64,000 nt of DNA from Bacteroidota bacterium (lineage in GTDB: Bacteria; Bacteroidota; Bacteroidia; Bacteroidales; TTA-H9), in NCBI GenBank assembly GCA_003250395.1, contig QKGM01000008.1:1-64000 (forward strand). The letters run 5' to 3'. The notes under the pieces were generated by a model. The model was not told the DNA's origin, searched no databases, and worked only from the letters and a program-made list of their open reading frames with translations. Shown in pieces: positions 447 to 8,745 of this stretch (the first letter of the stretch is position 1; each line of letters starts with the position of its first letter). A program made the position numbers and the translations under genes.

Positions 447-818
447 TTAATATTTATATCTTTTAATTCCATTTTTAAGTATTGTCACATTAAAATTTAT
501 AAGTAGCCCTGTTTTCTTTGAGGCAAACTTCATATAAGTCAATATCTACGCTTCGTGAACCGGATTAAAACCATCAACTGTTTTTAATTCAATTACCACC
601 GCATCTTCGACCAGAATATCAATCCGGTATCCACAATCTAATTTGATATCTCTATAGACCACTGGAACCGCTACTTGTCTTTCTGTTTTTAATCCTTTGT
701 CCCTCAGTTCGAAAACCAGGCACTCTTCATACGCTGATTCCAAAAGCCCAGGACCAAGGTTTTTATGTACCTCTATTGCACAACCAATTATTATTTCTGT
801 GATTTGGTTTGTTTCCAT
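447..818 (-). pseudogene. GxxExxY protein gene interrupted by an amber codon
   Basis: The first 90 codons encode a GxxExxY-family protein (a PD-(D/E)xK-like fold of unknown role): the [13 protein letters not shown] signature is at residues 22-34 and the nuclease-like RIDILVED...VIELK segment follows. The open frame ends at TAG (546-548), exactly where the family normally has Gln after VHEA. Reading on in the same frame gives ILTYMKFASKKTGLLINFN and more, which is the expected family C-terminus, up to TAA at 447-449. That totals about 123 codons, the usual family length. One C-to-T change (CAG to TAG) therefore explains the truncation. The gene is either a recent pseudogene or is translated by suppression; I favour pseudogene. 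A hexamer/CACAGAG array lies directly downstream. Confidence 0.85.
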
Positions 819-2809: not shown

Positions 2810-3840
2810 TATAAATTCTCTCTTTGCACAACTCAAGGTAAAAAAGCTTTGACATTAACAATGACTTTGGCGTTGGCGATGGCATTGGCTTTACATTGAC
2901 TTTAACAATGACTTTGGCGTTGGCATTGGTATTGGCTTGCTGGCGCGTGATTTTAGCCGCATGATAATTTTACAGATTACCACATAGTTAAGAGTAATTT
3001 TGCTTGTAATCATATCTTGATCTATTGTTGCTATCAGAAGCCAAAGCTAAAGCTAATGCTATAGTTAAGGTCAAAGTCAAAGTCCCCCCATATTTATTAA
3101 CCTTGACATTAACAATGACTTTGGCGTTGGCATTGGCATTGGCTGGCTGGCGCGTGATTTTAGCCGCATGATAATTTTACAGATTACCACATAGTTAAGA
3201 GTATTTTTGCTTGTAATCATATCTTGATCTGTTGTTGCTATCAGAAGCCAAAGCCAAAGCTAATGCTATAGTTAAGGTCAAAGTCAAAGTCCCCCCATAT
3301 TTATTAACCTTAACATTAACATTGACTTTGGCGTTGGCATTGGCATTGGCTGGCGCAAGATGTTGGCAGCGCGATAGTTTCATAGAGAACAACAGAAAAC
3401 CATAGAGTTAAGAAAATATGCTTTGTGTGTTACAAATGAGTCGGTTGCGTGAGCTTTTCCCTGGGGCCTCTATAGCCAAAGCTAAAGCTAATGCTATAGT
3501 TAAGGTCAAAGTCAAAGTCCCCCCATATTTATTAACCTTGACATTAACAATGACTTTGGCGTTGGCATTGGCTTTGGCTCTATATTGACTTTAACTTTAA
3601 CAATGACTTTGGCGTTGGCATTGGCATTGGCTGGCTGGCGCGTGATTTTAGCCGCATGATAATTTTACAGATTACCACATAGTTAAGAGTAATTTTGCTT
3701 GTAATCATATCTTGATCTATTGTAGCTATCAGAAGCCAAGGCCAAAGCCAAAGCTAATGCCATAGTCAAGGTCATAGTCAAGGTCAAAGTCAAAGTCAAA
3801 GTCAACCTCAAAGCCACCGCCACCGCCATCTGCTCTCTTC
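2810..3840. repeat. Hexanucleotide inverted arrays with repeated spacer module
   Basis: Several composite units follow one another. Each has a GYYAAN array (AAAGCTAATGCTATAGTTAAGG...), a short centre CCCCCCATATTTATTAACC, then a TTRRCN array (TTGACATTAACAATGACTTTGG...), so the two halves are imperfect inverted repeats able to form a long G.U-rich hairpin. Between units is a module beginning TGGCGCGTGATTTTAGCCGC, at 2941, 3148 and 3636. A second module type (GCGCAAGATGTTG..., GAGTCGGTTGCGT) is near 3354-3470. The last array runs to within about 10 bp of the Argonaute stop codon, so it would lie in that gene's 3' untranslated region. Frames across it encode only dipeptide repeats and are not genes. 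Confidence 0.8.
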
Positions 3841-3844
3841 CCCT

Positions 3845-5929
3845 CTATAAAAACCACAACCTCGTTCTGCCGATTTCCTCATCCAGTGCTAACCGGCCGA
3901 GGAACGGAAAAACTGATAATAACAGGTCGGGCAGCTCAACCGATACCGGTAACCGTACCTGGTTCCTCATACGAAAGTTTATCAGGCAAAATTTGTAAAC
4001 CTGTTGTATTACCTCCCCGACTACTTTATTATCGAGATAACCTATACGGTTTGAGATGAGTTTTATCTTCAACTGAAGAGATGAAGATGTTTGATAACCA
4101 TGGTTTCCCGGATCGTTGCCATTAACAAACAGCAGGTAGGTGTTGGGTTTGATTTTTATATACGTACCGTCGGGTGGCAGGTACTGAGCATGGGCAGGGT
4201 TATGTATCCGGATCTTTTTCCCGCGGGGATGGCTGATGCCAACCAGCACAACCGGCAAATCATGTTCAACATCACCCAGGAAATCATCCAGCAGGTCGGA
4301 AATACGCCCTTTGATCTTCTTATGGTAATGGATCACCACCCTGCTTAAACGCGGGTACTCCTTCCTGTAATCGGTAATTGCTTCAAGAAGCGAGGCACGT
4401 AACAGCCAGTCGGGAGGATCGGGCCAAACATCAAACGACCGGCATACACCTGTCGTTTCAAATACAAAGACCGATGCTGCATCAGTGGAGGCAGTTTGTG
4501 ATAACCCTGTTTTGCTTGCTGACGGATTTGATGAAGTTGTGCCGGATGCCATTCCTACGACTATTTCCTTGTTTGCTGCAACAGGCAGGTGCCATGGAAT
4601 TCCACCCAGTTTAACAACAAGGGCAATAGCCATATCTGTGAGAACCTCTTCGGTGCGGGTGCTGTTTAATGATGCAATCTCGATGGTGTGCAAGGTAACA
4701 CCTCTTGTCAGGAGCTGTCCTGCCAGTTCGTAACGGAACGAAAATACCCCGTCTTTCCCGTTTGGCGATACTTGAGGTGCCAGGTACACTGCAAAGTAGG
4801 TCTGAGCGGGATCGGGTACCATTGGCTGAACCTCCCAGGCTGGTATTTCTTCCTGAGGTAACAGGTCGCTAAGAACGAGGTTGAGCGTCTGGTCCCATAC
4901 CATTGGAAGCCGGGTCAGCCTGGTGATTTGCTTTTGTCCTTCGGCGCAACAACACATCTTGATGAACTTTTCGGCCATTGCCTTATCTGACTGGTGACAG
5001 ATCACGAAGATACGAACATGACGGCAGGGCGGGAGAGAGGCAGGGCCGTATGACATTAGCCCGTGGAGGATATCAGTATCGGGATGGTTCTGTCCGAACC
5101 ACAGCGTTCGGTCATGGTTTTTAAGGATAAATTGCCGCGATCCCGGTACAGGCAGCCAGTGTCCGGTGTGTGGAATTATATTTCTGAAAGCCTGAGTGTT
5201 GAGGTATTTGCTGAAGAAATCATCAAGATGCCGGCCGACCCCGGCAGATGAAGAATCCTCCGGGTTTTCGTTTGGACTGATTCCCATTACTTCTCCCAGT
5301 CCCGGGTTATAAACCGGGAACACCTTCCTGAGACTATAGCGCACTTCTTCCGGTAACTCATCGTAACGGAGGACTTCATAGTTGTAGACTACCCACGTGA
5401 GACATCGCGGATCGAGTCTCCGCTCGTACACTAATCTCTCAACACTAATGCCTGCCAGCCACGTCCGCCCTTTGAAAATCACCCTGAGACGGGGTTTCCC
5501 ATGTTCATAGTCAGTTGCAACCTGTAACCTGAATCTGAGAAAACTGTGCAGATCAGGGGCACCCGGTGTCTTGCCCGCTGCAACCCAATATTCGTTACCG
5601 TGGTTCATGTCGGTTTTGTAAAACCTGACCAAAGGGGCAAGGTGTTCATGGATTTTATTGTGGTACCAGCACCGCATCAGTACAGGATAATGGACAGGTT
5701 CAAATTCAACCGGGAAGCCATCCTCCTGTGTACCGGAAAAATCAACCCAAATGAAAGGCGTCGCCCCGGAGAGGTTGGGAAATGCTTTCAGAATACTATG
5801 GGGCAGAAAGGAATAGTTTAATTGAACACCATTTTTGATTTTTTCCCCAAAGAGGTTTACTTTGATCAGGTGTTGCAAGTGGGCGAACGGTAGTTGGTTG
5901 CTGAAGAGAGGAGGGAGTGGTGTTGGCAT
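3845..5929 (-). CDS. Prokaryotic Argonaute (PIWI protein), probably catalytically inactive
   Basis: The 694-residue protein has an Argonaute C-terminal half. A MID-like region spans about residues 300-437. The hallmark KLGGIPWHLP comes next (440-449), then PIWI strands VVGMASG (457-463) and VVIHYHKK (531-538), and a C-terminal LPVSVELPDLL helix (660-670) with an aromatic/hydrophobic end (WFL). Residues 1-300 look like N/L1/L2 modules with little room for a full PAZ domain. The acidic residues expected in active PIWI domains are not visible: the first strand has no Asp (VVGMASG instead of the usual GxDxS) and the third reads IHYHKK instead of IHRDG. By family knowledge such proteins bind a guide and its target without cutting and signal through a partner. 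The partner here is presumably the HTH protein encoded 24 bp upstream on the same strand. Confidence 0.8.
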   Translation of the reverse strand: MPTPLPPLFSNQLPFAHLQHLIKVNLFGEKIKNGVQLNYSFLPHSILKAFPNLSGATPFIWVDFSGTQEDGFPVEFEPVHYPVLMRCWYHNKIHEHLAPLVRFYKTDMNHGNEYWVAAGKTPGAPDLHSFLRFRLQVATDYEHGKPRLRVIFKGRTWLAGISVERLVYERRLDPRCLTWVVYNYEVLRYDELPEEVRYSLRKVFPVYNPGLGEVMGISPNENPEDSSSAGVGRHLDDFFSKYLNTQAFRNIIPHTGHWLPVPGSRQFILKNHDRTLWFGQNHPDTDILHGLMSYGPASLPPCRHVRIFVICHQSDKAMAEKFIKMCCCAEGQKQITRLTRLPMVWDQTLNLVLSDLLPQEEIPAWEVQPMVPDPAQTYFAVYLAPQVSPNGKDGVFSFRYELAGQLLTRGVTLHTIEIASLNSTRTEEVLTDMAIALVVKLGGIPWHLPVAANKEIVVGMASGTTSSNPSASKTGLSQTASTDAASVFVFETTGVCRSFDVWPDPPDWLLRASLLEAITDYRKEYPRLSRVVIHYHKKIKGRISDLLDDFLGDVEHDLPVVLVGISHPRGKKIRIHNPAHAQYLPPDGTYIKIKPNTYLLFVNGNDPGNHGYQTSSSLQLKIKLISNRIGYLDNKVVGEVIQQVYKFCLINFRMRNQVRLPVSVELPDLLLSVFPFLGRLALDEEIGRTRLWFL

Positions 5930-5953: not shown

Positions 5954-6943
5954 TTAATTCTCAGGCTTTTTAAATCTGTTTATTACCTCAATCACCTCCT
6001 CTTTATTATACTCAAATCTTCGGCCTGTCTGGCGGCATTTCACCAGTAAACCGCTTGTTCGCCAATAGGTGAGTGTTGTACGGGCAATACCATAACGTTT
6101 AAGAATTTCTCCCGGGCGCAGGTATTGGGTGGTTGTTTCAGTTGAATTACTGCTCCTGCCAAGTTCAATAATCCCGTCCTTCAGTCTGGCCAGATCAAGT
6201 TTAACCTCATTGGCAATAGTCAGAAAATCTTCTGTCGAACAGATTTTGTTTTTCTCTCTAGACCGGCTTTCAGCAGCAGTGACCAGGGTTAGCAAACCGG
6301 CGAGTGCTTCGCGGGTATTTTCGACTCCTGCCGGCCAGTAATCCGGCATGTAGAGTCGTTTTAATGCCTCGTCTGCTGCATCTTTCATTTCGGTGGATTT
6401 TTGTTCTTTCGGCAGGGAGAGTGAGATTAACAGCAAAGCGAATGTGACGAACATATCGAAGTAAGTGAGGGTGGTCAGATATTCGTGATGTTGTATGGCT
6501 ATGTGAACCAGGTCGTGATGGTATTGGATCAGCCGGCGGGTTAACCTGTGGGTGTAGAGCAGGTAGAGTTCCCCTAAATAAATGTCTTTACGCGCCGATT
6601 CGAGGTGTGCCATCATTCGTTCAATGGTAAAGCCCATGATGAGAAAGGGGAGCCGTTCCGATTCCTTCTTTGGGGCACAGCAGAGAATCAGGTCGCGAAG
6701 CTTCCCTGATACTTTTTTTGAAGGAGGTGCCAGCGAAAATGCATGCCACTCGGCTAATAGTTTCGGTACAGCAGGAATTGATAAGGCCGCCATTCCCCGT
6801 GGAAGGTCGTGAAAAAAGATCTCCCCGGTAAGCGAAAAGTCGGACGGGAGTTGCCGGATGATGGTAAGCGGCCTGTATTCCGGTTTGAAAACATCCGTCC
6901 ATGGTGCAAGAGAACCGTAAAAGAGGTGTTGCAGGGTAATCAT
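5954..6943 (-). CDS. Argonaute-operon partner: unknown N-terminal domain plus excisionase/MerR-type HTH
   Basis: The 329-residue protein is first in the operon; its stop lies 24 bp before the Argonaute start. Residues about 273-325 form a helix-turn-helix of the excisionase/MerR type (YLRPGEILKRYGIARTTLTYW, then a GRRFEY wing), which predicts DNA binding. Residues 1-260 are mostly helical, with His-rich stretches (YHHDLVHIAIQHHEYL near 141-156) and a hydrophobic helix (about 159-177) that could be membrane-spanning or buried. I do not recognise this domain. It is not a TIR, SIR2, DREN-type nuclease or APAZ domain as far as I can see. It could be an effector, a guide-loading factor or an autoregulator. 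The gene call is strong; the function is unknown. Confidence 0.8.
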   Translation of the reverse strand: MITLQHLFYGSLAPWTDVFKPEYRPLTIIRQLPSDFSLTGEIFFHDLPRGMAALSIPAVPKLLAEWHAFSLAPPSKKVSGKLRDLILCCAPKKESERLPFLIMGFTIERMMAHLESARKDIYLGELYLLYTHRLTRRLIQYHHDLVHIAIQHHEYLTTLTYFDMFVTFALLLISLSLPKEQKSTEMKDAADEALKRLYMPDYWPAGVENTREALAGLLTLVTAAESRSREKNKICSTEDFLTIANEVKLDLARLKDGIIELGRSSNSTETTTQYLRPGEILKRYGIARTTLTYWRTSGLLVKCRQTGRRFEYNKEEVIEVINRFKKPEN

Positions 6944-7650: not shown

Positions 7651-7719
7651 TTTATCTGAGAGGGAGCGGAGCCTTTTGGCGGGTATCTTTTGGGCGGGTT
7701 TTCAGTAAGTTAGGGGAAG

Positions 7720-8023
7720 CATTGGCGATGGCTTTACGTTGACTTTAACATTGGCATTAACTTTAATATTGGCTTTGGCATTGGCATTGGCTATGGCTTT
7801 ACTTTGACTTTAACATTAACATTAACATTAACATTGGCATTGGCTTTGGCATTGGCTTGCTGGCGCGTGATTTTAGCCGCTTGATAATTTTAAAGATAAC
7901 CATATTGTTAAAAGTAATTTTGCTTGTAATCAGATATTTACCCATTAGTGGTTATCTGGAGCTAAAGCCAACGCCAAAGCCAAAGTTCCCCCATATTTAT
8001 TAACTTTGACATTAACCTTGACC
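7720..8023. repeat. Hexanucleotide arrays and a direct copy of the left-flank module
   Basis: TTRRCN hexamers run at about 7730-7858. A copy of the TGGCGCGTGATTTTAGCCGC module starts at 7861, in the same orientation as those at 2941, 3148 and 3636. GYYAAN hexamers and a CCCCCATATTTATTAAC centre follow. The Argonaute operon therefore sits between direct copies of one repeat unit. Confidence 0.75.
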
Positions 8024-8745
8024 GCTGGCGCAAGATGTTGTCAGCACGATTATTTAACAGAGAGCCACAGAGTTAAGAAAGAATCCTCAGTGTAATACGG
8101 ATGAGTCGGTTGCGTTGGCTTTTCCCGGGGGTCTCTTTAGCCAAAGCTAAAGCCAACGCCAATGTAGTAATTAACCTTGGCATTAGCTATGGCATTGGCT
8201 TGCTGACGCAAGATGTTGTCAGCGCGGTTATTTAACAGATAGCCATAGAGTTAAGAAAAAATCCTCAGTGAAACACGGCTGAGTCGGTTGCGTTGACTTT
8301 TCCCGGGAGCCTTTTAAAGCCAAAGCTAAAGCCAACGCCAATGTAGTAATTAACCTTGGCATTAGCTATGGCATTGGCTTGCTGACGCAAGATGTTGTCA
8401 GCGTGGTTATTTAACAGATAGCCATAGAGTTAAGAAAAAATCCTCAGTGAAACACGGCTGAGTCGGTTGCGTTGACTTTTCCCGGGGGTCTCTTTAGCCA
8501 AAGCTAAAGCCAACGCCAATGTAGTAATTAACCTTGGCATTAGCTATGGCATTGGCTTGCTGTCGCGTGATTTTAGCCATATGATAGTTTCAACGAGAAC
8601 CATGGAGATCCACAGAGAACCACAGAGTTAAGAAAGAATCCTCAGTGTAATACGGATGAGTCGGTTGCGTTGGCTTTTCCCGGGTGCCTTTTAAAGCCAA
8701 AGCTAATGCCAACGCCAATGTAGTAATTAACCTTGGCATTGGCTA
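8024..8745. repeat. Four tandem units of about 178 bp
   Basis: Units begin with GCTGRCGCAAGATGTTG-like sequence at 8024, 8202, 8381 and (variant GCTGTCGCGTGATTTTAGCC) 8559, spaced 178, 179 and 178 bp. Each has a CAGAGTTAAGAAA module, a GAGTCGGTTGCGT module, a TTTTCCCGGG centre, GYYAAN hexamers, TAGTAATTAACC, and TTRRCN hexamers. The second and third units are almost identical, which points to recent tandem duplication. No coding sequence is supported here. Confidence 0.8.

Follow-up and report, generated by a model that had tools for sequence, protein, structure and literature searches.

A predicted inactive long-B Argonaute with an altered guide pocket and an upstream winged-helix partner in a Bacteroidota genome

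The stretch of Bacteroidota DNA analyzed here (64,000 nucleotides, referred to below as the window) encodes a prokaryotic Argonaute (pAgo) of the long-B type in which both PIWI catalytic residues and the MID residues that usually contact the 5'-phosphate of the guide have been replaced, together with a dedicated partner gene whose product ends in a winged helix. The reading that we favor, at a probability of roughly 0.55, is a two-gene system consisting of the dead long-B Argonaute and its upstream winged-helix partner, with the response going through the partner. Coordinates of the features on which this reading is built, and of the repeats that surround them, are collected in Table 1.

Table 1. 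Features of the pAgo locus, in window coordinates
Feature	Position	Strand	Basis or remark
pAgo gene, long-B type, 694 aa, predicted catalytically inactive PIWI	3845..5929	-	ORF, PADLOC, AlphaFold2, TtAgo alignment
MID 5'-phosphate pocket, residues 399-440	4610..4735	-	Homologue table; register to RsAgo Y463/K467/Q478/K506
PIWI strand 1, VVGMASG, residues 457-463; catalytic D1 (TtAgo D478) aligns with A461	4541..4561	-	
Ser/Thr/Ala-rich insertion after PIWI strand 1, residues 466-481	4487..4534	-	Disordered in model
PIWI strand 3, IHYHKK, residues 533-538; catalytic D3 (TtAgo D546) aligns with H536	4316..4333	-	
Fourth tetrad position, D668 (TtAgo D660)	3926..3928	-	Sole acidic tetrad residue aligning; E in L002
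Partner gene, 329 aa, 24 bp upstream of pAgo, same strand	5954..6943	-	Helical N-terminal part predicted, C-terminal winged HTH
N-terminal signature LFYGSLAP, partner residues 7-14	6902..6925	-	Common to pAgo partners at other loci
MerR/HTH_17/excisionase-like winged helix, partner residues 272-325	5969..6130	-	Profile and fold matches
Tandem ~180-207 bp hairpin-forming repeats, far side of pAgo gene	2849..3831	.	
Tandem ~180 bp repeats, same superfamily, upstream of partner gene	7713..8745	.	

The pAgo open reading frame is intact and the PADLOC pAgo model PDLC02385 matches residues 8-694 of its product with E 4.6e-90; the Pfam Piwi model by itself scores the protein below threshold. An AlphaFold2 model, built from 26 homologues and with a mean pLDDT of 80.9, takes up the N-L1-PAZ/L2-MID-PIWI fold over the full length, residues 2-694 matching the RsAgo and TtAgo chains with Z of about 28-29. 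Fold matches including RsAgo, TtAgo and CpAgo run over all residues at Z 28-31, that to RsAgo (6d8a) comprising 622 residues along the whole length (Z 28.6, rmsd 5.2), and MpAgo (5i4a) is also among them. When a family profile is compared with the PDB the top match is inactive AfAgo, a truncated long-B protein (4e-33), with the long-B proteins EcAgo (1e-24) and RsAgo (7e-24) next, while the long-A proteins AaAgo (2e-10), CbAgo (1e-8) and KmAgo (1e-7) score lower; by these profile scores the window pAgo lies nearer to RsAgo, EcAgo and AfAgo, its closest solved relatives, than to the long-A Argonautes. The same genome, which is 76% complete, yielded no second Argonaute, and no plasmid, phage or viral-contig copies of the window proteins were found; one distant pAgo relative does sit on a viral contig. 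The closest counterpart used in what follows is a pAgo 65% identical to that of the window from Bacteroidetes bacterium GWE2_42_24 (locus L002), and the Ser/Thr/Ala-rich insertion is specific to this lineage, being present only in these two proteins.

It had originally been predicted, from the letters of the window alone, that the PIWI domain had lost its catalytic residues, strand 1 reading VVGMASG with no Asp and strand 3 reading IHYHKK in place of the His/Asp-Gly pattern of active enzymes. Both strings are indeed present, and in an alignment with TtAgo, taken from plasmid pTT27 and aligned together with the homologues, the positions of D478 and D546 are occupied by A461 and H536, D660 corresponding to D668. 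The loop that carries the 'glutamate-finger' E512 of TtAgo is 8 residues shorter in the window protein, and the E512 position is not placeable. Of the four tetrad positions at least two are thus lost, which supports catalytic inactivity as judged from the alignment. A tetrad of Asp/Glu residues offset from these strands, the outcome that had been named as speaking against the prediction, is not recovered in the TtAgo alignment and was rejected. Asp is absent at tetrad positions 1 and 3 in all ~50 relatives collected, where G and Y/F are mostly found, and PIWI* variants with substituted catalytic residues are reported for all long-B pAgos (Ryazansky et al., PMC6299218); RsAgo itself shows the same inactivation pattern (VGMG and FHAH, as compared with VGMA and IHYH in the window protein). 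Since Asp is missing from both of these positions throughout the relatives and the profile is closest to inactive AfAgo, EcAgo and RsAgo, the alignments indicate that the loss of catalysis is ancestral and ordinary for the clade, rather than special to the window protein.

The MID domain presents a different situation. In RsAgo the 5'-phosphate pocket is made up of Y463, K467, Q478 and K506 together with T and N (PMC6299218). With the register to RsAgo fixed by the match of the family profile to the PDB, the canonical Y-K-Q-T-N-K becomes R399-A403-H414-V429-D432-K440 in the window pAgo, that is, R-A-H-K where RsAgo keeps its four residues. The segment LHTIEI, noted from the outset as lacking the usual Gln, spans residues 413-418 with H414 at the Gln position. 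The same RAHVDK pocket is found in L002, and because identical residues recur in a sister protein of only 65% identity the substitutions are not due to chance. In all other relatives covering the region, L152 and L153 included, Y and K are kept, and so is Q with the exception of L034. A long branch is not by itself enough to account for these changes, since the comparably long L034/L038 clade (1.93, versus 2.18 for the window lineage) nevertheless retains Y and K. Nearly half of the columns that are near-invariant in 32 core relatives (28 of 59) are changed in the window pAgo, across both MID and PIWI, and three of the four pocket residues are among them. Long-B pAgos are described as 'almost exclusively YK' for the 5'-phosphate motif, a usual rather than strictly defining property (PMC6299218); the window protein departs from the YK(Q..K) motif and fits the MID* description of the same work. 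The altered pocket is carried by two genomes only, both of one genus; pocket loss, unlike tetrad loss, is unusual for the long-B class. Canonical 5'-phosphate guide binding by the window pAgo is doubtful but not disproved, because part of the positive charge of the pocket is retained in the basic residues R399, H414 and K440.

Both genes are nevertheless under constraint. Between the window and L002 the pAgo has a dN/dS of 0.24 and the partner one of 0.21 (dS about 0.9), as compared with 0.15 for the neighboring yjbH-like gene, values that indicate maintenance of the window pAgo by purifying selection and no free decay. Guide binding is regarded as a core property of Argonautes, and a selected lineage in which tetrad and 5'-phosphate residues have both been replaced makes function without canonical guide anchoring directly testable.

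The C-terminus of the partner matches MerR_1 (E 0.0012, below the curated cut-off), the PHROG 66 excisionase profile (7.8e-5) and the MADS Mad1 model (3.3e-6). In the structural model pLDDT is about 80-90 over this domain and the remainder is poorly modeled, being predicted as helical with low confidence (mean pLDDT 48); the domain shows the HTH plus wing topology of the MerR/HTH_17 winged helices, with fold matches of Z 6-7 across 50-64 residues and a likeness over the C-terminal ~55 residues to BldC, SoxR, Xis and MADS Mad1. Proteins of the MerR/HTH_17/excisionase kind are mostly small or differently built, whereas here the domain ends a protein of 329 residues. For the other 270 residues no match was found: searches of Pfam, NCBIfam, PADLOC and PHROGs returned no effector family, only HTH families and chance-level matches, and the window partner showed no signature of a nuclease, SIR2 or TIR effector and no clear one of a membrane effector. 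A hydrophobic stretch at residues 159-177 has a mean hydropathy of 1.88, and a conserved transmembrane effector was considered and rejected, as a notable stretch of this kind occurs in the window and L002 partners only; a HEPN-type RNase was likewise rejected, the Arg-x-His spacings varying across partners. In L002 similarity to the partner breaks off at a TAG some 85 bp short of the contig end (L002 1-102) with no recognizable N-terminus, which may equally be a truncation or an assembly edge, the two being indistinguishable.

Similarly placed partner-type genes occur at ten further long-B pAgo loci. In seven of these (L002, L024, L026, L034, L038, L152 and L153) the partner lies directly upstream of the pAgo. 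It is also upstream in L030, at a greater distance, and in L120, where four genes separate the two, and in L127 it directly follows the pAgo; in L153 the two genes overlap, suggesting that their products are made together. A partner profile was seeded on L024, L026 and L030; in a search of 92 genomes from one family it found the three seeds again and gave two new strong matches, L152 and L153, both beside a pAgo, and a weak match (G274, E 1e-3) to a stand-alone HTH_17 gene. An N-terminal signature, [LIVMF][LIVMFY][FYHS]G.[LWYMF].P, was scanned over 759 ORFs from all loci and matched nine, every one a pAgo partner (9 of the 11 partners), the coverage of most of these being by design as the pattern was written after they had been seen. 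The partner of L120, left out in deriving the signature, matches it, and the other 750 ORFs are without it; the exceptions among partners are L024, which has no Pro, and L002, whose N-terminus is cut by the contig end. The L120 partner is matched over its N-terminal part, and no HTH was detected in it. Whole-length homology of the window partner to the other partner families was sought with hhalign and HMM searches, which were not significant; that it belongs to the same family as the distant partners is a hypothesis supported by architecture, position and the short motif. The HTH-partner pAgos cluster on the tree, where branches are long, and may or may not form a single clade.

Two further observations concern the surroundings of these loci. 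Between the partner-like gene and the long-B pAgo of L120 (2779-6272) lie a VirE-type gene (BT4734-like_N), a DUF3987/PriCT_2 gene and two HTH_17 genes, resembling either the og_54 association, VirE-type proteins forming this long-B-associated group (PMC10620215), or an inserted mobile element. A DUF6266 gene is present within the fetched region of 7 of the 11 HTH-partner loci (L026, L030, L034, L038, L127, L152 and L153) and of 3 of the 64 other loci (Fisher p 1.7e-5, genome kinship ignored), and a scan of the first 12 kb of the window detected no such gene; DUF6266 could be a third component or part of a shared mobile context.

The nearest analogy for how such a pair might operate is provided by BPAN, BPAS and BPAM, in which a long-B pAgo is combined with a PD-(D/E)XK nuclease, a SIR2 or a transmembrane protein (Song et al. 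2023, PMC10620215). As in the window, a full-length inactive long-B Argonaute adjoins a dedicated gene in a small operon; in those systems, however, the pAgo is upstream of its effector, whereas the window partner precedes the pAgo, shows a winged HTH and a helical part, and is accompanied by a non-canonical MID pocket. By this analogy pAgo and partner would form a complex, probably through the N-terminal region of the partner, the pAgo would recognize, but not cut, foreign nucleic acid, and the partner would mediate the response, either by binding DNA itself or through its helical part; the partner is a plausible effector. In the window lineage a guide, if there is one, would not be held by the usual 5'-phosphate contacts. 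The original prediction had seen in an inactive pAgo a bind-and-signal mode of action, and of this the inactivity stands, as the tetrad indicates, but with the canonical pocket lost the usual guide chemistry cannot be assumed. A bolder proposal, that the window pAgo is a guide-independent or unconventionally guided sensor with a winged-HTH partner and represents one lineage of a wider, undescribed long-B class marked by the N-terminal partner motif, we put forward tentatively and consider rather unlikely. In the open-access literature we came across no account of a long-B pAgo partner with an HTH tail beyond a general mention of HTH orthogroups, and some of these genes may already figure as an unnamed orthogroup in supplementary tables; the recurring HTH-tailed partner is a candidate class to be added to the nuclease, SIR2 and membrane effectors of inactive long pAgos.

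Other explanations must be weighed against a response through the partner. The partner might be an ordinary transcriptional regulator, perhaps of its own operon, with the pAgo needing no partner; it might, for instance, block invading DNA or cooperate with a nuclease whose gene lies elsewhere. The winged helix is after all the sole recognizable partner domain, pAgo operons often include HTH proteins (PMC6299218) and an operon figure of PMC10620215 labels a putative HTH regulator. However, a simple operon repressor would hardly need the other 270 residues, the signature is located outside the HTH and is matched by the L120 partner, where the HTH goes undetected, and the overlapping genes of L153 point to co-production, so that we regard this account as unlikely.

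The state of the MID domain invites two more proposals. Were the pAgo a decaying relic, catalysis would have been lost ancestrally and guide binding would now be going too, and the many changed family-invariant columns and the long branch of the window lineage are what one might then see. Yet both window genes and the L002 pAgo are intact, the dN/dS values are low and identical pocket substitutions are kept in both species, which makes decay quite improbable. The pocket could instead have acquired a new, MpAgo-like specificity, for a 5'-OH or some other 5' end, in a protein that is otherwise guide-directed. Among long-A pAgos both MID* variants and a MID-OH clade that binds 5'-OH have been described (PMC6299218), MpAgo is among the fold matches, MpAgo-like proteins also depart from the canonical 5'-phosphate motif, and the basic R399 and K440 remain. 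MpAgo, though, is a long-A protein from a CRISPR locus with a hydrophobic 5'-OH pocket, MID-OH pockets in general being described as hydrophobic and CRISPR-linked (PMC6299218), none of which was seen for the window pAgo, no CRISPR genes having been seen among the adjacent genes examined, and the change of N to D432 brings in a negative charge; a new specificity of this sort we consider the most improbable of the readings.

The genes adjoining the window operon are YjbH-like, PDDEXK_3 and polysaccharide-synthesis genes, and the order partner, pAgo, yjbH-like, PDDEXK_3 is identical in L002. Arrays of tandem repeats bracket the operon, with further copies at 86-445. The ends of the repeat unit are rich in hexamers, of the TTGGCA type at one end and the AAAGCC type at the opposite one, and pair to form a long hairpin, with folding z values of -3.5 and -5.5. 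An Rfam search returned nothing but a tRNA. Long repeat matches in the genome are almost confined to the operon flanks, those elsewhere being mostly short hexamer matches, and in L002 the copies are weaker, one lying between the partner and pAgo genes. The association of repeats and operon is positional, and any functional link is putative. Finally, the PDDEXK_3 gene (GxxExxY-type; window 546-818, minus strand) is terminated by an in-frame TAG after 90 aa, while its L002 counterpart, 97% identical, continues to 123 aa; its dS of 0.23, as compared with about 0.92 for adjacent genes, suggests recent exchange.
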